From: a virus
Length of the DNA stretch: 21,132 bases
IMG/VR virus record: IMGVR_UViG_3300025168_000824
Span: 1-21,132 of that record
Direction: 5' to 3' (one strand)
Position numbers and translations under genes: made by a program. This document shows, piece after piece, positions 1 to 21,132 of the stretch. The notes under the pieces were generated by a model that was not told where the DNA came from, did no database searches, and saw only the letters and a program-made list of their open reading frames with translations. The stretch's first letter is position 1. Each line of letters starts with the position of its first letter.

Positions 1-3000
1 GCGCAGATTGTTGCTGAGATACAACGTAACCACCCTAACATTGTTAATAACGATGGCGTATTACTTGAAGACCTAGAAGCCCAACGTTTTGAGAATGAAG
101 CCCAACGTTTTGAGAATGAAGCCCAGACGGAGATGGACTTACCTGAAGGGAAGAAAGATGCAAGCAAAAAAGCCAAAGCTAAAACCCGGAGTAAGAAGTC
201 AAGCTCAGCAAAAGTGGCTAAGCCAAAACAACCCGCAGGTTCTAAGCCAACTCCAAAAGGAGCAGCAGCCCTTAAACGTGGTACAAAAGGTGCGGGGCAG
301 CAAGTCGAAGACCCAAAAGGTGAAAAGAAAAAGACGAAGCCATCTGAACCGGTTAAGCCGGAACCCGCTGTCAGGAAAAAACAACAACCCGCTGATATAA
401 TTTTTGAGGCTACTGATGAGTGGCAGAATTTTCCTGAAGGAGCAATAGCTCCCGGCGGAGCAGAGTTTAGACTTAGTTTGACGGACCCAACACAACGCCA
501 AATACGTTTAATACCTACGGATAAGAAACCAGAAGCATCTCAGCCCACGATAAATCTTAACCAAGACCCTAACACATTAGGAAGAGGCGAAGATCGGTTA
601 ACGTTAGCCAAAGGGCTTATGGAAACAGCCGCTGGCCGTACAGAAGAACTTGACTTTAAAAAAGGTGCTCGCATCCTAATGACGGATGTATTGTTTAATC
701 CACCTACTGGTAAGAAAAACGTATGGTGGAACGAGATGGCTGCTTTAATTAACCAGCCTGAAGGCACTGGTATACTATGGGAGTCACCAAAACAACTCGC
801 TATGTCAAGAGAAGTTTTCCTAGAGTTAGCTGACGAATATCTTGTTTCCGGCAGTACATTAGGAAAAACATTTACTACCACAAAAGACGGGGTTGCAGGG
901 GTAGAACGAGACTGGGTGCGCATTGCCTTAGATATGGGTTGGTACATAGATACTATAGCTGTAATAGCTAAAAACAATGTTGTCCCCACTAAACCTAGTG
1001 CTCGTATTAACGATATAACAAAAAGTTTGGGCAGTAACCCTGATGCTACTGTTGAAGATATTGTTGCTGAAGTAAAAGAGTCAAGTAAAAGAAGTGGTCA
1101 AGCTGACTTAGCTACTTTTGCTTTATTTGATATGATTAGTGACCCCGTTATCAACAGAAAAACTATTGCGTTTTTACAAAATAGTCCTAAAGCATTTGCT
1201 AGTAGAGTTTCCAGTTTAGTTGCAGATGGTGCAGACCTTAGCTTTGTAGTTGAAGGTGCGCCACTTAGTGATTGGTTCCCTAATAATACAACTACTATTG
1301 AGAATGGTAAGTTAAAGCGTCCAACTTCTGCTGAGCAGTCTACACAGGAAAAGCTAGATATAGCTGACACTCGTCCTGTTGAAGGTCGTAACTCTAATAT
1401 AGAAACAGGAAGACCTATTACTCAGCCTATGCCTACTAACTCTCAACGGACTTATATAAACAAAGTGGTTAAAGGGCTAAACAAAAAAGTGAAACCACTT
1501 GTTATGAATGTTGCTGATCTTGCAGAGTTTAAGAAAAAATACCCAAAGAAATATAGAGAGGCTGTAGCTTCTCGTCCTGACAATAAAAATATTATTAATG
1601 AGAATACAGCAGCTCATTCTTTTGGCAACACTGTAGTTATCTTCCGCAATAACATTAAGAATAAACAGCACCTTGCATTTGTTCTAGGCCACGAAATTAT
1701 TGGGCACTTTGGTCTAGCATCTATTATGCCAAAGGCTAAGTTAAAAACACTGATGGATAACATATACGATACTGACCCTCGTATTCGTGCAGAAGCTATC
1801 CGTCGTATGTCAGTATATAATATGAATAAGACTGAAGCTGTAGAAGAAGCTGTGGCTGATCTTGCAGGGGTCATTGAATCTCAAACTATTATGAGAGTGT
1901 GGAACGCTATTAAAACGTTCCTTAATAAACTTGGAGTTAAGTTCTCTGACGATATGGCCCGCTATTATGTTAACCAGTCTCGGCGTATGCTACGCAATGG
2001 AACAACAGGTGATGTCTCTGCAAACGGTATATACTCTGACCTAATGGACATACAGGACCGTTACGTTGAGGGACGTTCATCAGACAACCTAGCTAGCTCA
2101 GCGTTCTCCCATAAAATTTTATCCGGTCAGGTTAGTAGTGAAGGGCTATGGTCTACCCTAACAGATATTGCAGGAGATATGACATCTGCTGAAGGTATCG
2201 ATACAAACGTTGGAAAACTTTCTGCAACTGTCAGCAACTTTGCTACTAACTTTGGACGGTTCGCAGAAATACTACAGACATTAGACCAGAAAGCTATCCG
2301 CAACCGTGGCCTGCAAGAACTATATAAAATTTTTGAAAACCAGTCTGAGCATGTCAAACGGCTACAAACTATTCTAAATGATAAGACTAACTTTTCTCAT
2401 CGTTACGATCCTGTATCACGTATCCTTACTGGTACTAGGCAAAAAGTTACAAAAGAAAACGAGAATGATTGGCAGAATGGACCACCTCCTCAAAAGTTTG
2501 AGCGTGACCAAGCTAACCAGTTGCTACAGGAGGCACGTTTATTCCGCTATGAAGAAGGCTCTGAGGCACTTATACGGGAACAAGGTAGCCTGTTAAATAT
2601 TAGCCCAGAAGGTGCAGTAACCCGCAATGAAGAGGTTATTAAAAAAGTTATAGATGCCGGTAGCGTTACCCGTAAACAGTTTGAAGCTGGTCTTAGAACC
2701 CCAAAGAAAGATGATGCAGGTAATATAATTAAAGGAGGCCCCAGAATATATAAGCCTGATTTTAAAATTACTGATCGGGTATGGAGGTTATACACTGAGC
2801 AACGTAATGCCGTAAATGAAGCCTCTATAATGGTTTACGAAGATAAAGTTATAGGTATGCTTGGCTCTCAGAAAATAGAGATAGACGACATTGTAAGAAA
2901 AAATAAATTAACTCCAGAGCAAGGTCGTATACTGCATGAGCTATCTGCTATCCACAGTAAATTATATCAGGCTAAACCTATAACAAAAGGCAACAAGTTT

Positions 3001-5931
3001 GAGTGGAATCCTGAGTCTATTGAAGCAGCTAGAGTATTTATATACCAAGCTATGCGCGTTATGGATAGTAAGAACGGAGACCGTAAATTAAATGACTGGA
3101 TCAACGGGTCTTCTGACCCTAACGACGCTGGTCTTGAAGCGTTCCGTAAAGATAAAGATTTCCCACAAGATTTTTCTGAGTTAGTAGAAAAGCTAAAAGT
3201 TCTTAACAAAGCTCAATTAAGTGAGCGAAGAGAACTGGATGCTCGCAGAACAATTCAAGATTTAGAAATTTCAAACTCACAATTAATTAACGCTGAGTAC
3301 AAAGCTATAAACGAAATGCTTACTTCGTATGTACCATTTGTTCGCAGGGGGAAATTTCAGGTTCGTGTTCAGGCTTATAGAATAGAAAACGGTAAAGAAG
3401 TACCTGTTGACCTTGACGAAAGCGTTAAGTCAATGCTGTATTACACGCGTACTAATAGCAAAAAAGAAGCTAATGATATACGTGATGCGTTAAATAAAGA
3501 GTTTAATACTTATGATACAACCGAAACTAAAATAAGGGTAGAAGGCGGTAATCAAAAAGCAAATGAAGACGGTACTATTAATCCGGACATCGTAAATGAT
3601 ATTGTATTCCGTGCTGAAAGTAGCACTGCTAGTTCAACTTCTACTCTTGCTAATGGCGTAAACTATGATGATGTAGCCAACACATTATTACGCGCTGGTA
3701 TTTCTTTAAAACAAAAAGATCGTGACAATCTAATAAAAATGATGACCGGCCAGCATTCTGTTGCACGTAAACGGATGGAGTTTAAACAACAGCCCGGTTG
3801 GGAAAATGATATGATGCGTAATATAGCAGAGCATCTTGAGACACAAACACACATAGCAGGTAAGAACCGGTTCAAGCACCAAGTCTCTCGTGTTGTTGCA
3901 GATAAAACTGCGGAGCCTAATCTATGGAATGGTAATCGAAGAGAGCTTGAGCGAAGGCAAAATGCTTACAGAGACGCAGCTAATAAAAGCCGTAAAGGTT
4001 ATAACGAAGCAAAGTCAGACCTTGCCTTTATGGATATGACATCATACCAACATTCATACATAGAGTCTTCTTCTAAAGAGAATATAATTATTTTAAATAG
4101 AGACCTTAGCGAAGGTAAAGTAAACGGAAAAGGTAAAGCAGGACAATATATAGATGACGCTAATAAACTAGTAGAGTTTTACAACAACACGGCTAACATT
4201 GCTGAAGCTACTGGTGAAGAAAAATTTGGTAAGATGTTTGGTAAATTTGCCACAGTCACTGCTGCTATGCAATTAGGTGGCGCAATAGCTCCAGCCCTTA
4301 TTAACTTAACTTCGTTAGGTAGTCACGCCATACCATACCTATCTACAATAAACAACAAGACCGGATATGGTGGTGGCTTTGGTCCCAGTGCAGCAGCGGC
4401 AGCTATCTACAGAGCAGGCAGTGATATGTCTCTTATCAAAGCTGTTCTCAAGATGGACGACGTAACTGGTACTGCGGCCAAACTTGATGTGTTACTTAAC
4501 GGCACTAAAGAAAATCCTAAAGTGTGGAAAGAAGGTGAGCGTGTCTACAATATGACAAGGGATGAGCTACAGTTCCTACAGTCGCTAACAGAGAAGGGTG
4601 TGCTAACACCTAATATGTTTAACGCTCTGGTTGGTACGTCACGTACAGGTAAACAATCCAATCAACTAGCAAGGATGACTGAAACGTGGATGAAGTTATT
4701 CTCTAAAACTGAACAGTATAACCGACGCGTTACGGCACTAGCTTCCTATCGTCTGGAAAAAGAACGACAGCTAAAAGCTGGGGCAAAGGAAAGTGACTTT
4801 GCTACAGGTAAAACAGATGCGGCAAAGCACGTATACGCTCGATCAATTACTGCGGTTAACGCATCCCAAGGTAACTACGCACAGTACAACCGCCCTCACC
4901 TTGCCCGTGGTAATGTTGCTCAGTACCTGTATATGTATAAGCAGTTTGTGGTTATTACAGTTCAACTGATGCGTAACCTTGGTACTAGGGAACGTCTGAT
5001 TATGCTTGGGCTTCTTGTTTTGATGAGTGGTGTAAAAGGTATACCATTTGCTGAAGACTTTATGGATTTGGTGGACACATTAATGCAGAAGTTTGGAATC
5101 AAATCTAAAGGGGTTGAGGCTTATGTTTCAGAAATATCGGAGGCTATGATCCCCGGTTCGTCTCGTATTTTAATGCGTGGTCTTGGAGATTACTTGCTAG
5201 GCGCAACAGTATCTAACCGTCTAGGCCACGGTAACTTGTTGCCGGGTACTACTTTTTTCCTTGCTGGCTCTGATACTGGTAGGGAACTTGCAGATATTGC
5301 TGGTCCTATAGTATCAGCCATGCAGGGTATAGTAGGTGGTACTGCGTTAATAACAAACTATGCCGCTGAGACTGTTGGCCTAAAGCCTGATGTAACCAGC
5401 TTTGAAGATATAGCTCGTACAGGTTTAGGTTCATCTGGTCTTAAAGCTATAGCCGAGAGCTTTATATTTATGTCTGATGGTACTATTACTAATAAACGTG
5501 GGCAGGTGGTAGCTAAAGATTTTGGTCCGTTTGATATGGTAACTCGTATGTTAGGGTTCTACCCATCTGCGGCTACTACCCAGTACGATATTAACCGTAT
5601 GACTCAACGTGCTAGAGATTACAGTAGGGTTATTAAAGAAGGTTTTGTTGCACGATACCGCAAAGCTGATACAGCAAAGGAACGTCGCCTTGTTAGACAG
5701 GAAGTCAGAGAGTGGAACCGAGATGCTGGTAAGAAGTCACCATTCTATATTCGTAACTTCACAGCTTCTGCAAGCCGTTCCGCAAGAGAGGCTAAACGTA
5801 CTGCAACAGGGCGTTTATTAAAGTCAGCACCTAAGTCAGTGCGGGCTATGCAGAAAGACCTAATGCTTGCGTATGGGCTTGATACAAAAGGCAATCTTCC
5901 TGACAACCTTGACCGCGTTAACCAACGTTAG
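1..5931 (+). CDS. Giant PLxRFG-type phage protein with zincin metallopeptidase motif (5' partial)
   Basis: The frame is open from base 1, so the true start lies left of the window; the ATG at 133 is probably internal. The visible protein is about 1,976 residues and ends at TAG 5929-5931. In order: a 7-residue repeat (nt 76-126); a Lys/Pro/Ala-rich low-complexity linker (nt 133-400); a zinc-metallopeptidase motif HEIIGH (nt 1690-1707) followed by EEAVADLAG (from nt 1843), which fits a zincin third ligand; a PFVRRG motif (nt 3334-3351) that matches the naming motif of PLxRFG phage proteins with two substitutions; hydrophobic stretches around nt 4240-4340, 4990-5040 and 5290-5375; and a basic C-terminus. 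Such giant proteins are generally thought to be carried in the virion and delivered with the DNA, sometimes called polyvalent proteins. It is on the strand opposite the replication genes, as expected for a late structural gene. The family call is from motif recognition; the enzymatic activity is inferred. Confidence 0.75.
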   Translation, partial: AQIVAEIQRNHPNIVNNDGVLLEDLEAQRFENEAQRFENEAQTEMDLPEGKKDASKKAKAKTRSKKSSSAKVAKPKQPAGSKPTPKGAAALKRGTKGAGQQVEDPKGEKKKTKPSEPVKPEPAVRKKQQPADIIFEATDEWQNFPEGAIAPGGAEFRLSLTDPTQRQIRLIPTDKKPEASQPTINLNQDPNTLGRGEDRLTLAKGLMETAAGRTEELDFKKGARILMTDVLFNPPTGKKNVWWNEMAALINQPEGTGILWESPKQLAMSREVFLELADEYLVSGSTLGKTFTTTKDGVAGVERDWVRIALDMGWYIDTIAVIAKNNVVPTKPSARINDITKSLGSNPDATVEDIVAEVKESSKRSGQADLATFALFDMISDPVINRKTIAFLQNSPKAFASRVSSLVADGADLSFVVEGAPLSDWFPNNTTTIENGKLKRPTSAEQSTQEKLDIADTRPVEGRNSNIETGRPITQPMPTNSQRTYINKVVKGLNKKVKPLVMNVADLAEFKKKYPKKYREAVASRPDNKNIINENTAAHSFGNTVVIFRNNIKNKQHLAFVLGHEIIGHFGLASIMPKAKLKTLMDNIYDTDPRIRAEAIRRMSVYNMNKTEAVEEAVADLAGVIESQTIMRVWNAIKTFLNKLGVKFSDDMARYYVNQSRRMLRNGTTGDVSANGIYSDLMDIQDRYVEGRSSDNLASSAFSHKILSGQVSSEGLWSTLTDIAGDMTSAEGIDTNVGKLSATVSNFATNFGRFAEILQTLDQKAIRNRGLQELYKIFENQSEHVKRLQTILNDKTNFSHRYDPVSRILTGTRQKVTKENENDWQNGPPPQKFERDQANQLLQEARLFRYEEGSEALIREQGSLLNISPEGAVTRNEEVIKKVIDAGSVTRKQFEAGLRTPKKDDAGNIIKGGPRIYKPDFKITDRVWRLYTEQRNAVNEASIMVYEDKVIGMLGSQKIEIDDIVRKNKLTPEQGRILHELSAIHSKLYQAKPITKGNKFEWNPESIEAARVFIYQAMRVMDSKNGDRKLNDWINGSSDPNDAGLEAFRKDKDFPQDFSELVEKLKVLNKAQLSERRELDARRTIQDLEISNSQLINAEYKAINEMLTSYVPFVRRGKFQVRVQAYRIENGKEVPVDLDESVKSMLYYTRTNSKKEANDIRDALNKEFNTYDTTETKIRVEGGNQKANEDGTINPDIVNDIVFRAESSTASSTSTLANGVNYDDVANTLLRAGISLKQKDRDNLIKMMTGQHSVARKRMEFKQQPGWENDMMRNIAEHLETQTHIAGKNRFKHQVSRVVADKTAEPNLWNGNRRELERRQNAYRDAANKSRKGYNEAKSDLAFMDMTSYQHSYIESSSKENIIILNRDLSEGKVNGKGKAGQYIDDANKLVEFYNNTANIAEATGEEKFGKMFGKFATVTAAMQLGGAIAPALINLTSLGSHAIPYLSTINNKTGYGGGFGPSAAAAAIYRAGSDMSLIKAVLKMDDVTGTAAKLDVLLNGTKENPKVWKEGERVYNMTRDELQFLQSLTEKGVLTPNMFNALVGTSRTGKQSNQLARMTETWMKLFSKTEQYNRRVTALASYRLEKERQLKAGAKESDFATGKTDAAKHVYARSITAVNASQGNYAQYNRPHLARGNVAQYLYMYKQFVVITVQLMRNLGTRERLIMLGLLVLMSGVKGIPFAEDFMDLVDTLMQKFGIKSKGVEAYVSEISEAMIPGSSRILMRGLGDYLLGATVSNRLGHGNLLPGTTFFLAGSDTGRELADIAGPIVSAMQGIVGGTALITNYAAETVGLKPDVTSFEDIARTGLGSSGLKAIAESFIFMSDGTITNKRGQVVAKDFGPFDMVTRMLGFYPSAATTQYDINRMTQRARDYSRVIKEGFVARYRKADTAKERRLVRQEVREWNRDAGKKSPFYIRNFTASASRSAREAKRTATGRLLKSAPKSVRAMQKDLMLAYGLDTKGNLPDNLDRVNQR
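76..126 (+). repeat. In-frame 21-bp tandem repeat
   Basis: The 21-bp unit GAAGCCCAACGTTTTGAGAA plus T occurs at 76-96 and again, identical, at 97-117. A third partial copy (about 8 matching bases) starts at 118. It encodes a repeated EAQRFEN heptad inside the giant protein and keeps the frame. The heptad length and charge pattern would suit a short coiled-coil extension. Perfect identity suggests a recent duplication by slippage. Confidence 0.9.
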
Positions 5932-13468: not shown

Positions 13469-14125
13469 TTATCTTCCAAACTCACATAAATCTTTTGCTG
13501 GACACCAAGGGCATAGACCACTGGGCTTGGGAGGCCATTGATCTTTAGCGAGAGATTGTTCGATGCGAGTAACCTTGCCCATCAACTTCTCCCATAGTTT
13601 ATGAGTGTCCTCTCTCGTATAAGTTTCAGTATCTATCTTCATATCCTTAAGCCATATAAGCGAGGACTTCACACGCTGTACGTCTGGGTATAGCTTGAAC
13701 ACAAGTATGGCGAACAGTTCCATCTGAAAGAAATCAGGTCGGTACTTACCTGTCTTCCAGTCACCAACCACTGCCTCGGTTCCATTGATAACAAGTATGT
13801 CTAGCTTGGCTCTTAGCCATGCGTCAGCATCCCACCAACCTGTTGCTTTGAGGTCTTTGTTTAGGGTGAACTCTTGCTCTGCAACAAGTTCTCCTGCAAG
13901 TGTTAAGAACGCTACGGCCAGCGGTTCATACTTTGCACTCTCTTCCGGCAGGGGTGTACCTTCCTTAAGGCGTAGCTCAAGCTGTTCATGTATACGGTTA
14001 CCATAAATGCTAGCCTCACCAAAGGAAGGCTTAACCTCCTTGGTAATACGTTGCATATAGTATTGCTTCGGGCAGTTATCATACTGCTTAAGAGCTGAGT
14101 AACTGTGAGCTAAGGGCTTAGTCAC
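13469..14125 (-). CDS. Cas4/RecB-like PD-(D/E)XK nuclease with Fe-S cysteines
   Basis: A 218-residue nuclease. N-terminal YSALKQYDNCPKQYY carries C18, and the end LCPWCPAKDLCEFGR carries C205, C208 and C214, the one-plus-three cysteine layout that holds a 4Fe-4S cluster in Cas4, AddB and Dna2-type enzymes. The active site shows H46 (GNRIHEQLE), D109 (AKLDI), D122-W-K124 (GDWKTGK) and Q134. It probably acts as a DNA exonuclease in recombination or host DNA breakdown. The start codon is GTG at 14123-14125, overlapping the polymerase stop by 4 nt (GTGA), a typical coupling. No CRISPR array or other cas gene is present, so a phage recombination nuclease is the better reading than Cas4 proper. Confidence 0.85.
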   Translation of the reverse strand: MTKPLAHSYSALKQYDNCPKQYYMQRITKEVKPSFGEASIYGNRIHEQLELRLKEGTPLPEESAKYEPLAVAFLTLAGELVAEQEFTLNKDLKATGWWDADAWLRAKLDILVINGTEAVVGDWKTGKYRPDFFQMELFAILVFKLYPDVQRVKSSLIWLKDMKIDTETYTREDTHKLWEKLMGKVTRIEQSLAKDQWPPKPSGLCPWCPAKDLCEFGR

Positions 14126-15993
14126 TTACATTCTCCGTAGTTATCACCAATGGCAGACTCGCAAGCCACTGGTAGTGTTGTTGCCCACGCTGGTGGGGTA
14201 CTCATTATCTTCTCCACAACTTGTTGTGCTGTGTGTGCTTCATCAGACCTCGTGTTGATTATGATCTCATCATGCACTTGGAAGACAACATGGTAGTGTT
14301 GACCGACAGCAGTCATCTGGTCTGTAATAACAATACGTGCCAGTGCTTGAATAATATTCTCAGTCACCTTACCCCCATAGATATTAGTCCATGCTATCTC
14401 ATCCGCTGTATTGTCTGTGACTCTAGCGGCTATGAACTTACGAAACGTACGTGCATCAGCTATATACCCAAACCCATTATCTCTTGCACGTAGCGCAGTG
14501 TAGCGTAGCACCATTGTGTTAGGTAGGACAACACCATCAGGGCTATAACCTATAAAGTTACCAACCACACCAGACTGACCATTAACCATATCTCTTAATA
14601 GCGTATTGCATCGTGTCCACAATGCTGTAATCATGGGGTATGTGTTTCTATACAGGTTGACTATACGCCTAGCTTCTCCTCCACCTATATCATTACTGGT
14701 CTGCAACTTAATAGTATCATGAAATTTTAAATGGCCCATGCCATAACCTAGACCTAGTATACAAGTCTTACCAACGAAGCGTTGTTCTTTAGTGATCTCT
14801 GTCTCAGGTATGTTATAAACCTTAGCGGCAAACTGTTTATAGACATCTTCACCACGCCTAAACGCTTCTACCAGATCATGTTGCCCTGCTACATATGCTA
14901 GCATACGTGCCTCTATCTGGCTTGAGTCGCAAGCGATTAGCTTATGCCCTTCAGGAGAACATATTGCAGTACGTATGACGTTGTTCCCGCGAGCGGGCAG
15001 GTTCTGTAGGTTTAGTTTGTCGCCTCCGCTGAACCGCCCAGTGTGTGCGCCGTAGTACTTAAGCATGATAGGCAGAGGCCCACGCTTAGATACCTCGATT
15101 AATCGTTGCGTCCTTGTCTCCTCTATGGTAGACTTGGTGCCAAGTCTAACGCCTACAATAGCACGTACCGCTGGCTTTTCATGGTCAAGCAAGTCCTTCA
15201 TACCTTGGTCAGTCTTAGCAAATGCAAACGTCTCTTTGCCTGTGGTCAAGCTAGTCTTCATTGGTATATCCACGCCCATATAACATAGTAATGACGCAAA
15301 CTTAGGGTTGCTGTTGAGTGATTTCTTGGCAACCTCTGGGTCACCATTACCCAACTTGTTGAGGAGTGCTAGCTTACGATCTTGCTCCGCCTTGAGGTGG
15401 GCTTCTAACTTAAACCTATCTAGCTCAATCACAGACTCAGTATACATACGTATGGTCTGGTCAATGACCATGAGTTCGCTGACAGGAAAACCTTTCCTTA
15501 GTTCCTTGAACAACTTGTATGTTAGTTCCGTATCGTTAATACAATAGTCACCGTACTGGGCTAAGTCAGTGGGCGTAAAGTCCTTGCGCCTCTTACCTAA
15601 TGCGTCAATAACCTCAGTCCCTTTCTCACCTAGACCAAAGTTAAGCACTAGGTTTTTTAAGCTCCCACCTACTGTGACACTGTGCGTAGGCTTAGCCATC
15701 GACATGGTATCGAACCAGAACTTAGGCTTGATACCGAAGTGTTCTGATAGGATAAGCCCATCAAACGCTGTGTTGTGGCAGAGAATAGCCTTGTTGCTGT
15801 AGTCCAACGAGTTGAGGAACGTACGTGTACCCTCCATTGTACCGCTGAACCAATCAGTAGGGCCATCATTAACCTTGATTGACACACCAATCACCTCAAA
15901 CTTATCATGCCTGACGTACTCTTCAGTAGTCATCTTACCAAGGCCATAGTCCTTAGAGTAATAGGTCTCAAAGTCTAGCGTTACTAAGTCCAT
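14122..15993 (-). CDS. Family A DNA polymerase with 3'-5' exonuclease
   Basis: A 623-residue replicative polymerase, shorter than T7 gp5 (704). The exonuclease domain has Exo I LDFETY (D7, E9), Exo II CHNTAFDG (N74, D78) and Exo III YCINDTE (D154), so proofreading appears intact. The polymerase domain has HTGRFSGGDKLNLQNLP (317-333), motif A ACDSSQIEARMLA (catalytic D356), motif B RFVGKTCILGLGYG (K409, Y417), and motif C QVHDE (D575). Motif A has Ser in place of the more usual Tyr after the first Asp. It is the leading replicase of the phage, working with the ssDNA-binding protein and primase encoded downstream. The start overlaps the upstream pyrophosphohydrolase stop by one base (TAATG). 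Confidence 0.93.
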   Translation of the reverse strand: MDLVTLDFETYYSKDYGLGKMTTEEYVRHDKFEVIGVSIKVNDGPTDWFSGTMEGTRTFLNSLDYSNKAILCHNTAFDGLILSEHFGIKPKFWFDTMSMAKPTHSVTVGGSLKNLVLNFGLGEKGTEVIDALGKRRKDFTPTDLAQYGDYCINDTELTYKLFKELRKGFPVSELMVIDQTIRMYTESVIELDRFKLEAHLKAEQDRKLALLNKLGNGDPEVAKKSLNSNPKFASLLCYMGVDIPMKTSLTTGKETFAFAKTDQGMKDLLDHEKPAVRAIVGVRLGTKSTIEETRTQRLIEVSKRGPLPIMLKYYGAHTGRFSGGDKLNLQNLPARGNNVIRTAICSPEGHKLIACDSSQIEARMLAYVAGQHDLVEAFRRGEDVYKQFAAKVYNIPETEITKEQRFVGKTCILGLGYGMGHLKFHDTIKLQTSNDIGGGEARRIVNLYRNTYPMITALWTRCNTLLRDMVNGQSGVVGNFIGYSPDGVVLPNTMVLRYTALRARDNGFGYIADARTFRKFIAARVTDNTADEIAWTNIYGGKVTENIIQALARIVITDQMTAVGQHYHVVFQVHDEIIINTRSDEAHTAQQVVEKIMSTPPAWATTLPVACESAIGDNYGECK

Positions 15994-16337
15994 TACCTGT
16001 CATCCTTACCTATGTTGCGTCCTTCATAGGCGATCAGGAACATAAGACAACAAGCGGCATGCCATAGGTGAGGGCGGGAACTCTCAGCATCAAACTTCTC
16101 GCCACGCCACCAAGCCCACATATGACGCATCAATGCACCGAAGGGGCGTGACCAGTGCATGCCCTCCTCCCAGTTACGTGCGCCGTACTTCTCTGCGCCG
16201 AACTTAAGTATGGTAGCTGTACCCTCAAGGAACTCAGGGGCTAGCAGTTCGTATGGTATTTTATCTTGGTCAAACTTAACAGCCTGTCCCTCTGCGGCTT
16301 CTTTCCTAGATGGTATACGTATCCTTTTCTCTAACAT
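15993..16337 (-). CDS. dATP/dGTP pyrophosphohydrolase-like protein (DUF5664/MazZ-like)
   Basis: A 114-residue protein with the DUF5664 pattern: KFDQDKIPYELL, LKFGAEKYGARNWEEGMHW, LMRHMWAWWRGEKFDAESS and HLWHAACCLMFLIAY. This all-helical family is related to MazG and MazZ enzymes that convert dNTPs to dNMP and pyrophosphate; the conserved Glu, His and Asp residues would bind Mg2+ and phosphates. It may adjust the dNTP pool for replication. In phages with 2-aminoadenine DNA a MazZ relative supplies dGMP to PurZ, but DUF5664 is also widespread in ordinary phages. AGGAGA at 16343-16348 lies 5 nt before the ATG, inside the Ntn hydrolase gene, which it overlaps by 32 nt. Confidence 0.8.
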   Translation of the reverse strand: MLEKRIRIPSRKEAAEGQAVKFDQDKIPYELLAPEFLEGTATILKFGAEKYGARNWEEGMHWSRPFGALMRHMWAWWRGEKFDAESSRPHLWHAACCLMFLIAYEGRNIGKDDR

Positions 16338-16770
16338 AATTATCTCCTAGTGTGTATAGTTTAACACCCAACCCACAGTGGACTGAGTGTTTGTTCGCTG
16401 CTTCTACAGCTTGTTCTGCTGTTGCGCCCATGAATAACGCACCATAGGCGAAGTCTCTACCTTCACCGAAGGCACACGGTGTGCGTCTATGTTCAATGGG
16501 TATTGGCCCTTGCTCCCACCTATATAGTCCGTGTTCGTTTACGACTACAAAGTGACACGCATTAAAGCCAAGTTGTGCGTCTGGGAACTTGTTGTGGAGC
16601 GAACCCTCAACATACCATTGTCTCATCTGTAGTATAGTTTGTAGTGGGCCAGCCCCTGATATTATAATATCGTTAAGTTCCCATGCCTTCTCTGTCTCCC
16701 ATTGGGCAGCACCATCAGTAGCGGCAGCATCAGTGGCTAGGGTGATGCCATCCCATACTATGACTGTCAT
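16306..16770 (-). CDS. HslV/proteasome-beta-like Ntn hydrolase
   Basis: A 154-residue protein resembling phage-encoded HslV/20S proteasome-type peptidases. Removal of the initiator Met would expose Thr2 as the N-terminal nucleophile (MTVIVWDGITLATD). Asp14 and Lys28 sit near the positions of the HslV Asp17 and Lys33 that support catalysis. Further pattern: IISGAGPL, a central strand FVVVNEHGLYRW, GEGRDFAYGALFMGATAEQAVEAANKH and a C-terminal CGLGVKLYTL strand, as in proteasome-fold proteins. HslV needs an ATPase partner (HslU); none is visible here. It may degrade host or phage proteins during takeover, or be a non-proteolytic Ntn fold. It starts at an ATGA overlap with the upstream membrane protein gene. 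Confidence 0.7.
   Translation of the reverse strand: MTVIVWDGITLATDAAATDGAAQWETEKAWELNDIIISGAGPLQTILQMRQWYVEGSLHNKFPDAQLGFNACHFVVVNEHGLYRWEQGPIPIEHRRTPCAFGEGRDFAYGALFMGATAEQAVEAANKHSVHCGLGVKLYTLGDNYVREKDTYTI
16343..16348 (-). promoter_or_regulatory. Ribosome-binding site of pyrophosphohydrolase gene
   Basis: AGGAGA on the - strand, 5 nt before the ATG at 16337. It lies inside the 3' end of the preceding gene and supports the 32-nt overlap as real. Confidence 0.65.
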
Positions 16771-16988
16771 TCAGGAAACTTCAGCTTCCATAGTATGTAT
16801 GGTTCTCCGCATTTAGTGTCGCATATTCTAGCTGGGATGGACTGGGCCTTGAGGTCTAAGGGGGTCTTGCCTACGTAATGCCATGTAGCACCCTGCTCTA
16901 CTTGTTCTTCAGCAGTCTTCAAAAACTCTTGGTTACTGGATACGAATAGTCCTCCAACTGCAACCATGATAGCTAAAATTATTGTCAT
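16767..16988 (-). CDS. Small membrane or secreted protein (73 aa)
   Basis: The N-terminus MTIILAIMVAVGGLFVSS is a hydrophobic signal or membrane anchor, followed by a soluble tail with two cysteines (ICDTKCGEPY). The start at 16988 is preferred over 17006 because GGAG at 16996-16999 is 7 nt upstream and the upstream stop is then 1 nt away. The stop forms an ATGA overlap with the Ntn hydrolase start. It sits two genes after the lysin, so a holin, pinholin or spanin-like lysis role is possible, but a single N-terminal segment and a 50-residue tail do not decide this. No family recognised. Confidence 0.65.
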   Translation of the reverse strand: MTIILAIMVAVGGLFVSSNQEFLKTAEEQVEQGATWHYVGKTPLDLKAQSIPARICDTKCGEPYILWKLKFPE

Positions 16989-16989
16989 G

Positions 16990-17187
16990 TTACGTCTCCG
17001 TTTCATCTAATAGTTTGTCTCTCAACTTCCGAATTGTCCGTTGAGCACTGTCTCTATCCCACTTCAAGTTCTCAGTCTGGTCTTCAAGTACTTTATTTCT
17101 CCATATTAATTCTACAATTTGCGTGTTTAATGCTTCAATTTTAAGAATTAAATTTCTTATTGACCAAGTATTATAATCCATTGTCAT
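16990..17187 (-). CDS. Coiled-coil microprotein (65 aa)
   Basis: Nearly the whole protein is one charged helix with heptad-like spacing: IRNLILKIEALNTQIVEL, then RNKVLEDQTENLKWDRDSAQ and RTIRKLRDKLLDE. There is no membrane segment. It starts at an ATGA overlap with the lysin stop (17184-17187), and a second ATG two codons in is possible. Its place between the lysin and a membrane microprotein raises the chance of a lysis-associated or structural adaptor role. Function unknown. Confidence 0.65.
   Translation of the reverse strand: MTMDYNTWSIRNLILKIEALNTQIVELIWRNKVLEDQTENLKWDRDSAQRTIRKLRDKLLDETET
16996..16999 (-). promoter_or_regulatory. Ribosome-binding site deciding start at 16988
   Basis: GGAG on the - strand, 7 nt before the ATG at 16988, inside the last codons of the coiled-coil gene. 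The upstream in-frame ATG at 17006 lacks such a site. Confidence 0.55.
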
Positions 17188-17843
17188 GTCCGTTTTAGTT
17201 TCTGTAACTTGTTCCAGTCTATCACCTTACTTATAGGTTGTTTAAACCTGACCTCATTCGGACCATCGAAACGCTGGCCTTTCATAGCTTGCTCGAAGTG
17301 TTCTTCTCGTTTCTCGTCATCTTTAATATGGTCAGGCCAACCTCTGTTAATCTTCTGAGCTTTTAAACCACCTAGTTTTGAACTTGTTGGCTGGAAACCT
17401 TGTTTCTTAACTTTCATTCTAACATTCCTTTCCCACCTATAGAAAATATGATCTTCAATCCTGACCTCTCTCGTCATTGCCTTTGCCCAAGATGGACTGA
17501 CCTCAATAGAATGGTAGTGTGTGGCTCCCTCTGTTGGGTCTATCCAATCTTCTCTAACTATACCAGTAGCAAGTTTAGCAGCGATACGAAACGCAGCCTC
17601 GTCTTTTGGCTGGTCACTCTTACCATCGCAGTAGAAGCTGAATTGACATTGGTCCCTAAGAACTGGGGCATCTAAGGGATTGTCGATTTTTCCTTGGGTG
17701 ATGACATCGCAAATATTGTCTGGATAACGGTCATCTTTCACTCGATTCATAGCTACCTGCCCAACTGCAAGCTGCCCGATAAGGGGTTGGTCCCTTGCTT
17801 CAAAGTAGATCATCGTTGCCAAACATATAATACTAGAGATCAC
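17184..17843 (-). CDS. SleB-type cell-wall hydrolase (endolysin)
   Basis: A 219-residue Hydrolase_2/SleB-family protein. LATMIYFEARDQPLIGQLAV (catalytic Glu15 in YFEAR), then GQVAMNRVKDDRYPDNICDV, QCQFSFYCDGKSD, GATHYHSIEVSPSWAK and IEDHIFYRW follow the family order. These enzymes cleave the glycan strands of peptidoglycan, so it is the likely endolysin. The C-terminal 85 residues are basic and unassigned. The start is set at GTG 17841-17843 because AAGGAG (17851-17856) lies 7 nt upstream; a longer reading from a TTG at 17891 lacks any site. The N-terminal hydrophobic stretch belongs mainly to the enzyme domain, so a signal or SAR sequence is uncertain. A lysis gene inside a replication unit is unusual. 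Confidence 0.85.
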   Translation of the reverse strand: MISSIICLATMIYFEARDQPLIGQLAVGQVAMNRVKDDRYPDNICDVITQGKIDNPLDAPVLRDQCQFSFYCDGKSDQPKDEAAFRIAAKLATGIVREDWIDPTEGATHYHSIEVSPSWAKAMTREVRIEDHIFYRWERNVRMKVKKQGFQPTSSKLGGLKAQKINRGWPDHIKDDEKREEHFEQAMKGQRFDGPNEVRFKQPISKVIDWNKLQKLKRT

Positions 17844-17997
17844 AACCTCTCTCCTTATCCAATCCCCCCACTGGAACTTGTAAGGCGACAAGCGACAGTG
17901 GGGGGTAGGTTACAAACCGTATGGGCTGGGGAAGTAACCTAAGCTCTTAGAATATGCGACACCTTATCATACTTTACTCCGCTGTCAAGTTGGAGTA
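17844..17997 (-). promoter_or_regulatory. Leader region of lysin gene with inverted repeats
   Basis: This covers the 141-nt gap, the longest in the window, plus the last bases of the preceding gene. It holds three inverted repeats: AGGTTAC 17907-17913 with GTAACCT 17934-17940 (20-nt loop); CTAAG 17939-17943 with CTTAG 17946-17950 (2-nt centre); TACTCC 17975-17980 with GGAGTA 17992-17997 (11-nt loop). On the - strand TTGACA (17983-17988) and TATGAT (17966-17971) occur but are only 11 nt apart, too close for a standard promoter. No T-run follows any arm. Regulatory function is inferred from length and structure. Confidence 0.45.
17851..17856 (-). promoter_or_regulatory. Ribosome-binding site deciding GTG start of lysin
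   Basis: AAGGAG on the - strand, 7 nt before GTG at 17843. It is among the strongest sites in the window and argues against the TTG at 17891. Confidence 0.7.
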
Positions 17998-18785
17998 TCA
18001 AACACACCATAGGCTTTTCGATAGTGTACGCTGTGTGTATTAAACACGGTATCTACGTTCTCAAGTACCATACTATCAGTAATATGTGTTTGTCTCCACC
18101 CTAAATTAACTGTCTGTACTAATAACCTGAGCAAGTTAGGGGGGTACTTATCAGTACGCATACACTCCAGAACTTGTTGTGTTATCTCAGGCGAGTCCCA
18201 CTGTGGTATAGGGTGGAGGTTGCGTATGTACCCTGTATCTTCTACAACTTCTTGTATGTACCCTTGTAGCGCACCCACCTTAGCCCTTGCCTTCAGTCCT
18301 CTCTTGAACCTCTTCACATCACGTAGCCACTGCTTACGAACCTTTGGTATAACAGTGTCAAGTAGGTTAGGCCGTGGGTTGAGGCAAGTTTGTGTGGCTA
18401 AGTCGAATTGCATACCAGTAAAATACTCAAGTGTGTTAGTATGATCTACATTAAGGTAGCGGTACAATGGAGGGTGATAGGCTTGTATCTTACTTATAAC
18501 GTATACCCCTTTGCGTTTGCGTGACAGCATAAGCGGAATGATCTTATAAAGCACAGTAACCAACGAATGATTTAAGTTTAGCAGTTCCCTCTGCGACACC
18601 GTGAATGTAAGTTTATTATTTCTATCTATCTCGAAGATTTTAATATTACTTATGTAGACAGCGTACAACCTGTTGTGCTGGTGCATCCTCCACCCACCGG
18701 GTAAAGGTTTACCCTTACTAATTGAGCGACAAGTATTAAATAGATCAGCGAAGTCTGAATAAGATGTCAAGTTTACTGGTCTCAT
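17985..18785 (-). CDS. Basic protein of unknown function (266 aa)
   Basis: No family recognised. The protein is rich in Lys, Arg and aromatic residues: PLPGGWRMHQHNRLYAVYIS near the N-terminus, a very basic centre (PKVRKQWLRDVKRFKRGLKA, about 148-167), and a mostly helical C-terminal part with LLRLLVQTVNLGWRQTHITD. The basic patch suggests nucleic-acid contact, but this is inference. There is no signal peptide or membrane segment. AGGAGA lies 7 nt before the ATG at 18785, partly overlapping the end of the upstream gene. The TGA stop falls inside a TTGACA at the start of the 141-nt gap. Confidence 0.7.
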   Translation of the reverse strand: MRPVNLTSYSDFADLFNTCRSISKGKPLPGGWRMHQHNRLYAVYISNIKIFEIDRNNKLTFTVSQRELLNLNHSLVTVLYKIIPLMLSRKRKGVYVISKIQAYHPPLYRYLNVDHTNTLEYFTGMQFDLATQTCLNPRPNLLDTVIPKVRKQWLRDVKRFKRGLKARAKVGALQGYIQEVVEDTGYIRNLHPIPQWDSPEITQQVLECMRTDKYPPNLLRLLVQTVNLGWRQTHITDSMVLENVDTVFNTHSVHYRKAYGVFDTPT

Positions 18786-18796
18786 ATCTAATTCTC

Positions 18797-19456
18797 CTAT
18801 TTAGTAAATTTAGCCAATGCAGATGTGGCAGTCATGGATGCTAGATCAACACCTTCAACCACTACTTCTTTCTTCTTACGGTCCACAATCTGTTTGTGTC
18901 GTTCTTGCTTGTCGTATGGAACCAAGTCCCATAACGGAGGCCATGCTTTGATGGCGGGGGCAAGGGTAGAGTATGTGTCCATAATTGTATTGACCCCAGC
19001 GATAAAGACTTTTCTTTCATCCTCAATCTTACGGATAGCATCACAGTACTTCTTGTACTCAGCCTTGAATGTATCCCATCGAGGGTCAGAAGGGTTGAGA
19101 TACCATCCACCATAGGTACGAGCTTCACCTACTAACCCATGTGACTCTCCAACTATTTCGTTGGGTATAGGTAAAGGAGTAGTTAGTTTCATACTAACAG
19201 TGTAATTATCGCTGGTAGACCACACATTCTCCTGACCACCAAAACCTCTTATTGATACCTCATCATTATTACGGAAGTAACTTTTAGGTAGCGATTGCAT
19301 AGCAATCTTATTATCTTGGAACACCAGATCATAGATTGTCTGACCCCAAGTATCAGGGTAGTTCTTCCGTGCTTTCTCGTCCCTATCACTGAACAGACTC
19401 TTTGCCTTATTAATAATATCGTTTCTAAGTTCACCACTAAACCTAACTGTAGCCAT
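18797..19456 (-). CDS. Possible Nmad5-like nucleotide-modification-associated protein
   Basis: A 219-residue protein. Its layout resembles phage proteins labelled nucleotide modification associated domain 5: an N-terminal SGELRNDIINKAKSLFSDRD, a tryptophan and DLVF segment, LPKSYFRNNDEVSIRGFGGQ, a helical middle (FKAEYKKYCDAIRKIEDERK), and MDTYSTLAPAIKAWPPLWDL near the end. The likeness is in general order and composition, not in a decisive catalytic motif, so confidence is limited. AGGAG sits 9 nt before the ATG. If correct, it would point to altered bases in the phage DNA or to an accessory in their synthesis. Confidence 0.4.
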   Translation of the reverse strand: MATVRFSGELRNDIINKAKSLFSDRDEKARKNYPDTWGQTIYDLVFQDNKIAMQSLPKSYFRNNDEVSIRGFGGQENVWSTSDNYTVSMKLTTPLPIPNEIVGESHGLVGEARTYGGWYLNPSDPRWDTFKAEYKKYCDAIRKIEDERKVFIAGVNTIMDTYSTLAPAIKAWPPLWDLVPYDKQERHKQIVDRKKKEVVVEGVDLASMTATSALAKFTK

Positions 19457-19796: not shown

Positions 19797-20061
19797 CAGC
19801 AAGTTCCTTTCGTAGTTCCTCGGTGTATAACTTTGAGGACGCTATCTTGTTGGCTTCGACTAGCCGTCCCACTAAGAACGCCGCACTCTCCAACACCCTG
19901 CTATGTACAGGGTCGGATAGAGTACTAGCTATGTACTCCAACTCTGTCACTGTGGCATCAAGGTCTATGGTGTCAGCTATATACTGACATCGTTCATAGG
20001 CTTCGATCCACTTGGCTTCACGTTTAAGCTGGCGGTTATACTCTACCTCTACGCTACTCAC
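19783..20061 (-). CDS. Small helical protein of unknown function (92 aa)
   Basis: An all-helical, charged protein: YNRQLKREAKWIEAYERCQY at the start, then a helical pair around ELEYIASTLSD and ESAAFLVGRLVEANKIAS. It starts at GTG 20059-20061, overlapping the stop of the VWA/metallopeptidase gene as GTGA, so it is translationally coupled to it. No domain recognised. It may be an accessory of the VWA protein, by position only. Confidence 0.65.
   Translation of the reverse strand: MSSVEVEYNRQLKREAKWIEAYERCQYIADTIDLDATVTELEYIASTLSDPVHSRVLESAAFLVGRLVEANKIASSKLYTEELRKELADVHI
19804..19810 (-). promoter_or_regulatory. Ribosome-binding site of 64-aa membrane protein gene
   Basis: AAAGGAA on the - strand, 7 nt before the ATG at 19796, inside the end of the preceding gene. 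Confidence 0.55.
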
Positions 20062-21132
20062 ATCATCACCGTTTCACCAAAGGGGGTATCATCCCCATCT
20101 CTGCCATTGGATACCCACAGTACAGGATAGCTGGGGGCAGAGCCGTAGTCATTGCAGTACAGATCAGTAAGAACAACACAGGCTACAGGCTCAATGCCAT
20201 GCTTCTCGATCTCTGTAAAGATAGGGCTGAACGCAGTACCGCCACCACCATGTGGCTCAATATGTACCTCGTCATCCCGTGCAAACTCATCGACATGGGC
20301 TATCTCAGTGTCGAAGTACATCACTGTAATCTTAGAGGGGTGCTGGTCCTCATGGATAGTCTTAACCTCAGCGGCAAACTGCGCTATCACATCGTCACTG
20401 ATAGAGCCACTGCAATCCACCGCTACAACAAGTTCTCCCATAGCTTCGCCATCCCTGCTTGGAAGGTATAGCCCTTGGCTTATGAAGCGGCGGTTAGGTC
20501 TTGACCATGTACGCCAGTCAGTCCTAGCCTTCTCGACAAAGCGTTGTAGTACATCACGCCAGTCTACCTTGGGGTTGAGTACCTCATCGACTAGCCTCTC
20601 CATGCCAGCAGATAACTTGCCCATCATCTTGGCGGCTTGAGCCGCTTGAGCAACCTTGACTTTCCACTCGCCAGCCTGTTGCTCCTGCTCCTGTTGTGTA
20701 CCCTTGGCATCCATGCAGTCATCCATGCCAGAGCCAGTGCCACCATAGCCCTCATCGCCGCCATCCTCATCCTCTGCTGGTAAGATGCTGTAGATACCAT
20801 CACTAGTACCGCCACCATTGGCATAGATATCCTCATCGTACAGGCCACAGTCAGGCATCTTGCCCACCTTGTCATCAATCAATAGCTTGTTGATAACGTA
20901 GTCACCTGCATGGTTCCAACGCTTATGAGTACGTTCATGCCGTCTGTAATTATGTTCAAGCATGGGGTGCATACACTCATGGGCAACAAGGAATAGAAGC
21001 CCCTCGTCTGTCAAGGTGTCACAGAAGTCAGGGTTGAACATCACCTTGCTACCATCGGTAGCCGCAGTAGGTATCTCATTGGTAATCTGGAACGGCATAT
21101 TCATGGCGATAGTACCAATGAATGGATGATCA
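20058..21132 (-). CDS. DUF2201-like metallopeptidase-VWA protein (5' partial)
   Basis: The frame is open to the right edge (codons for HPFIGTIAMNMPFQ precede and include the ATG at 21104), so the gene begins outside the window. Counting from that Met, AHECMHPMLEH holds an HExxH zinc site (H42, E43, H46). An acidic Gly-rich and Gln/Glu-rich linker follows (about 110-145). The C-terminal von Willebrand factor A domain has an intact MIDAS: D230-C-S232-G-S234, T290 and D314. This matches VWA-like DUF2201 proteins, which usually pair with a MoxR-type AAA+ ATPase encoded just upstream, here beyond the edge. In that family the pair is thought to act as a metal-dependent chaperone-like complex. The gene is visibly richer in GC than the giant gene. 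Confidence 0.82.
   Translation of the reverse strand, partial: DHPFIGTIAMNMPFQITNEIPTAATDGSKVMFNPDFCDTLTDEGLLFLVAHECMHPMLEHNYRRHERTHKRWNHAGDYVINKLLIDDKVGKMPDCGLYDEDIYANGGGTSDGIYSILPAEDEDGGDEGYGGTGSGMDDCMDAKGTQQEQEQQAGEWKVKVAQAAQAAKMMGKLSAGMERLVDEVLNPKVDWRDVLQRFVEKARTDWRTWSRPNRRFISQGLYLPSRDGEAMGELVVAVDCSGSISDDVIAQFAAEVKTIHEDQHPSKITVMYFDTEIAHVDEFARDDEVHIEPHGGGGTAFSPIFTEIEKHGIEPVACVVLTDLYCNDYGSAPSYPVLWVSNGRDGDDTPFGETVMM

Follow-up and report, generated by a model that had tools for sequence, protein, structure and literature searches.

A stretch of viral DNA of 21,132 nucleotides (IMG/VR record IMGVR_UViG_3300025168_000824), here called the window, carries a short gene that was described, in an earlier note made from the sequence, as an HslV/proteasome-like hydrolase lying in a replication operon. 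This raises the question of what such a protein is, and whether an ATPase works with it. Here, the protein is assigned to the family known as PPH, and the explanation that fits best as a whole, which we consider probable, is that it is an accessory threonine peptidase which carries out proteolysis and has no dedicated ATPase.

The PPH gene and its surroundings

The open reading frame at positions 16306–16770 is intact and lies on the minus strand, a detail which the earlier note did not give. At its 5' end it shares nucleotides with the stop of a 79-aa ORF (16767–17006). The features that bear on its analysis are as follows:

14122..15993, minus strand: family A DNA polymerase (PolA), the conserved downstream border of the PPH slot
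15993..16337, minus strand: dATP/dGTP diphosphohydrolase-like protein of 114 aa (PF18909, E 1.8e-33)
16306..16770, minus strand: PPH-type proteasome-like N-terminal-threonine hydrolase of 154 aa, with an ATG start
17184..17891, minus strand: cell-wall hydrolase (Hydrolase_2, PF07486), between C266 and PPH and also present in the closest relatives
17985..18785, minus strand: C266, a conserved lineage protein and the upstream border of the PPH slot
18797..19456, minus strand: C219, a conserved lineage protein with only weak matches
20058..21104, minus strand: metallopeptidase-VWA protein, from matches to the domains DUF2201_N and DUF2201

The surroundings are indeed those of DNA replication, with DNA polymerase A, RecB-like and VRR-NUC nucleases, a SNF2-type helicase, a T7-type SSB and a DUF927 primase/helicase around PPH, and the window edge falls in or near the VWA gene. 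C266 is without a family match in the libraries searched. The matches of C219 are weak (Nmad5 at E 0.0017, below that model's cut-off, and phrog_1965 at E 6e-4); it is well conserved in the lineage and is a candidate for a role in nucleotide modification. PHROGs and many phage records give the metallopeptidase-VWA (DUF2201) protein the name "HNH endonuclease", and this looks like a mislabelling. At 133–5931 on the plus strand there is, in addition, a 1932-aa ORF with an HExxH-type motif (HEIIGH), which is perhaps a large virion protein. Just two PHROG groups match it, phrog_11358 (E 7e-37) and phrog_21376 (E 2e-25); neither has a known function, and both matches fall in its C-terminal third.

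The ORF at 16306–16770 is not a chance one, because it matches phrog_1040, "peptidase HslV family" (E 3.4e-25), has relatives in other viruses, and gives dN/dS values of 0.16, 0.26 and 0.29 against the relatives L004, L002 and L003, that is, it is under purifying selection. The window protein matches phrog_1040, yet that group is broad, and its model finds a match in 9 of the 14 control genomes as well, including E. coli and archaea. No Pfam model was matched by the window protein at E <= 1, and the Pfam Proteasome model (PF00227) was matched by 11 of the 42 A1 family members at E <= 0.01. PADLOC returned nothing, and NCBIfam nothing above cut-off.

A first scan of viral sequences, with MTVIVWDG as a search pattern, recovered 63 PPH relatives, and a second with the C-terminal half of PPH recovered 106, of which 80 were kept. 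After removal of the window's own copy (L001) and a truncated hit (L107), the 137 hits became 135 full-length ones, and these were reduced to 55 representatives less than 80% identical to one another. The closest relative is L004, whose PPH is identical at 138 of 154 residues. Relatives occur both in IMG/VR contigs and in named Caudoviricetes, where many carry the RefSeq label "peptidase HslV family"; the hosts of the named phages are mostly Pseudomonadota. A scan of the genome collection with one pattern gave a single locus, and tblastn with the PPH of L055 or with C219 as query gave no named phage.

Predicted fold, family and catalytic residues

The comparison of a predicted structure with HslV, which the earlier note had suggested, places the protein in the proteasome/HslV-like class of Ntn-hydrolases. 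The AlphaFold2 model of PPH, built from an alignment of 42 sequences, has a pLDDT of 89.8 and a pTM of 0.83, and it matches HslV, BPH and proteasome beta subunits. Its top PDB matches in Foldseek are BPH and HslV, the best BPH being 5ovs (E 6.3e-8). With VIA-align, the top match is E. coli HslV (4g4e; Z 17.0, rmsd 2.3 Å, 139 residues aligned, 19% identity), where model residues 2–146 lie on residues 1–174 of the 4g4e chain and Thr2 falls on HslV residue 1; every one of the 50 entries shown is a subunit or complex of HslV or of the proteasome. The sequence search with profile A1 found proteasome beta subunit 3h4p (E 1.1e-4) and HslV 6kr1 (E 0.0028), and each of the 60 matches shown, from a total of 71, is a proteasome, HslV or BPH entry. 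The PPH model also has 44 matches among the viral models of the BFVD library (E <= 0.001).

The PPH model has one long helix (residues 43–54), followed by mere turns at 59–61 and 64–67 and then by a strand at 73–78, so helix H2 is absent. The early strands of the model carry no inserted helices. The last strand spans residues 136–139, and residues 146–154 form a disordered tail with pLDDT below 50.

These features point to a family that is known and uncharacterised. As described in the 2021 report by Fuchs, Alva and Lupas (PMC8665760), PPH is a proteasome homolog of about 140 residues in Caudovirales and their hosts, which is without helix H2 and for which no genomic context or AAA+ partner was found. 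The window protein is a member of this family and agrees with each published trait that could be checked: it is phage-encoded, it has the core of about 140 residues with the Thr/Asp/Lys/Gly set, and it is without H2, without a C-terminal extension past the core and without an AAA+ partner found. It differs from that description in its length of 154 aa, which includes a short disordered tail, and the lineage and gene context given here do not appear in the sections of PMC8665760 consulted. The earlier name therefore holds at the level of the fold; the protein is not HslV proper and fits the PPH subfamily without H2, as described in PMC8665760, and the name PPH is preferable to HslV.

The two nearest known systems are set apart in other ways as well. 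HslV (ClpQ) is the best structural match and shares the N-terminal catalytic Thr, the Asp and the Lys, whereas PPH is only 19% identical to it, lacks H2 and has Glu103 at the Ser position. BPH (5ovs, 5ovt) is the best Foldseek match and is like PPH in that no unfoldase partner is known for either, whereas PPH is shorter and 18% identical.

The earlier note held that the Thr nucleophile, Asp14 and Lys28 look preserved, and proposed that this be checked in relatives. Among the 55 representatives, position 2 is Thr in 53 and Ser in 2, while Asp14, Lys28 and Gly41 are each found in 55 of 55; thus Lys28 is kept throughout and Thr2 gives way to nothing but Ser. Of the two outcomes that the earlier note had named as refuting, loss of these residues in relatives and a fold of another class, neither was observed. 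The first scan is not an independent test of Thr2, because MTVIVWDG was a search pattern in it, and therefore the scan with the C-terminal half and the named phages serve as independent tests. Among the 19 representatives that only the C-terminal-half scan recovered, position 2 is Thr in 17 and Ser in 2, and Asp14, Lys28 and Gly41 are present in all 19. In nine PPH proteins of named phages, hand-picked from tblastn hits, position 2 is Thr in eight and Ser in one, and reading by eye shows the Asp and the Lys in all nine. Thr2, Asp14, Lys28 and Gly41 correspond to proteasome Thr1, Asp17, Lys33 and Gly47, and Gly41 aligns, in the profile match, with the Gly of the AGS motif of beta subunits.

One position departs from the proteasome set. 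Glu103 stands where proteasomes have Ser129 (from the alignment with "GSG"), and this position is variable in the family (Glu in 18, Ser in 15, Ala in 7 and His in 5 of the 55, with others in the remainder), so that the chemistry of PPH may differ from that of canonical proteasomes. A separate residue, Cys132, is kept in 51 of the 55 representatives and falls, in an alignment made by eye, close to the position of proteasome Ser169.

Enzymes with the Ntn fold carry out many different reactions. The departure at position 103 would suit a fold that serves a reaction other than proteolysis, for example a connectase-like protein ligation, or one that is inactive. We consider this improbable, as the nucleophile and the Asp, Lys and Gly residues vary little or not at all across the representatives. 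Against ligation in particular, the helical insertion in the early strands, which PMC8665760 gives as the signature element of connectase, has no counterpart at that place in the PPH model.

A variable slot and the question of the ATPase

The window's lineage makes up 35 of the 55 representatives. Neighbouring families were labelled by HMM; a single-linkage clustering was discarded, as it mixed families (its cluster 0). The usual order is MoxR, c7, VWA (DUF2201), C219, C266, PPH, sometimes a pyrophosphohydrolase, and then PolA, RecB, VRR-NUC and SNF2; in the exception, L051, PolA comes before PPH.

The pyrophosphohydrolase is the neighbour to which the earlier note had drawn attention, from a 32-nt overlap that hinted at linked expression. 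The overlap is exactly 32 nt (16306–16337) and encodes the disordered C-terminal tail of the PPH model, and the identification of the neighbour as a dNTP pyrophosphohydrolase (PF18909) stands. The gene has its own AGGAG ribosome-binding site, and an overlap of 32 nt is found in the window and L004, with 4–7 nt in four other representatives. The hint of linkage fared less well: just 5 of the 31 lineage representatives with PolA downstream have a pyrophosphohydrolase gene placed between PPH and PolA (L008 adds one next to PPH, with PolA outside the available L008 sequence). Linkage was accordingly rejected as a general feature, and the gene is an occasional neighbour and not a conserved partner.

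The interval from C266 to PolA can be regarded as a slot, and its contents were compared by scans for C219 and for MoxR that were run independently of PPH. New loci only were taken (69 of 80 for C219 and 79 of 80 for MoxR), and the requirement for both borders left 56 and 51, respectively; these do not each represent a separate lineage, and they include contigs that the PPH scans had also recovered. PPH was scored as absent when no ORF of at least 60 aa anywhere in the locus gave an HMM match at E <= 1e-3. By this measure, PPH is present in 50 of the 56 slot-covering loci from the C219 scan and in 10 of the 51 from the MoxR scan. Where it is absent, the slot holds small unrelated ORFs, as seen in the 40 listed of 47 PPH-less loci. 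Across L139–L286, the occupants of the slot alternate between PPH, pyrophosphohydrolase, cell-wall hydrolase and various small ORFs. PPH is thus optional accessory cargo in a variable slot of this lineage.

The earlier note saw no ATPase partner, which is correct within the window; the closest relative, however, carries an AAA+ gene immediately past the point that corresponds to the window edge. In L004, a 327-aa MoxR-type AAA+ gene at 4006–4989 lies about 5 kb before PPH on the same strand and is followed by c7, VWA, C219, C266 and then PPH from 10001. By comparison with the relatives, the MoxR gene and c7 would lie beyond the end of the window. The MoxR label is based on Pfam AAA/AAA_5 (on L005 and L025), on phrog_1297 "ATPase", and on the pairing with the VWA protein, since PMC7824862 describes MoxR paired with a metallopeptidase-vWA protein in jumbo phages.

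The MoxR-type ATPase and the metallopeptidase-VWA protein might be thought to work with PPH, as MoxR is upstream in 25 of the 35 lineage representatives, the other 10 having at most 5.3 kb of upstream DNA covered. The slot comparison argues against this, and we regard it as very unlikely. PPH is missing from 41 of the 51 slot-covering loci fetched with MoxR, and Rhizobium phage RHph_TM3_14A has MoxR, VWA, PolA and the nucleases in order with no PPH in that place. Conversely, no MoxR gene was found near PPH in the available DNA of any of the 20 representatives from other lineages. In addition, PMC7824862 proposes that pairs of MoxR and VWA proteins act as assembly chaperones. The MoxR-type gene upstream of PPH in the closest relative is a new observation, and the suggestion of an ATPase encoded outside the window was correct in that an AAA+ gene exists upstream in that relative; it is of MoxR type, however, and does not track with PPH.

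The other candidate raised by the earlier note is the host's HslU, which would feed PPH and let it replace or compete with host HslV. HslV is the top structural match, and the Pseudomonadota, which are the main hosts of the named phages with relatives, usually have HslU. AAA_2, the HslU/ClpX-type ATPase domain, was detected in 14 of 14 controls and in none of 20 PPH-bearing records (15.7–59.3 kb, several likely incomplete), so that, in contrast to an HslV-type context, no HslU-type gene accompanies PPH in these records, although the host could supply one. The model is without helix H2, as PMC8665760 describes for PPH, and this absence could alter the ring contacts or the docking of HslU. We hold the host-HslU explanation to be possible though unlikely, and the best reading of PPH is an accessory peptidase with an N-terminal Thr and with no dedicated ATPase of the phage's own.

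Other lineages and the proposed role

Outside the window's lineage, the surroundings of PPH change. Twenty of 126 neighbouring proteins were scanned, from 17 of the 20 other-lineage loci (L031, L040 and L052 were left out). In 8 of the 20 (L062, L048, L053, L064, L030, L058, L060 and L059), PPH has a terminase, portal or head gene nearby; a primase/helicase was found in 2, Sak4 in 1 and cysteine dioxygenase in 1, with nothing named for the rest. In named phages, PPH is directly beside terminase in Sinorhizobium phage phiM5 and Caulobacter phage CcrSC, beside a holin in SETP7, beside a polynucleotide kinase in RcXuper and near PhoH in phAPEC8. There is no single PPH context, which fits the 2021 statement (PMC8665760).

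The head and packaging neighbours would suit a protease of virion assembly or head maturation, and some PPH may act in this way. As an explanation of PPH it is unlikely, as replication genes surround PPH in the window's lineage and its neighbours elsewhere include primase/helicase, Sak4, holin and polynucleotide kinase. Furthermore, the phiM5 record notes detection in the virion for the portal, scaffold and capsid and, unlike these, not for the peptidase.

For the preferred reading, an accessory threonine peptidase without a dedicated ATPase, the following mechanism is proposed by homology. Host methionine aminopeptidase would remove Met1, thereby freeing Thr2, whose hydroxyl would attack peptide bonds, assisted by Asp14 and Lys28, while Gly41 would line the oxyanion hole. 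The subunits probably form ring-like particles, as do those of BPH and those of HslV, whose ring is a double hexamer. Because no dedicated ATPase was found, the substrates are most likely proteins that are small, unfolded or specifically bound, cleaved either without an ATPase or with a host housekeeping unfoldase. Given the position in a variable accessory slot, host takeover, counter-defence or the turnover of proteins in the infected cell is a better fit than an essential role in replication, and such a role is what we would expect of PPH. A more specific version, which we put forward tentatively, is that PPH is a swappable, unfoldase-independent, proteasome-like particle, carried as phage cargo, that destroys particular host proteins such as defence or takeover targets.

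No experimental study of PPH appeared in the literature listings searched. The family is common in cultured phages, the protein of one relative alone having 358 matching records, including Salmonella and Escherichia phages, and its function is thus testable in laboratory systems.
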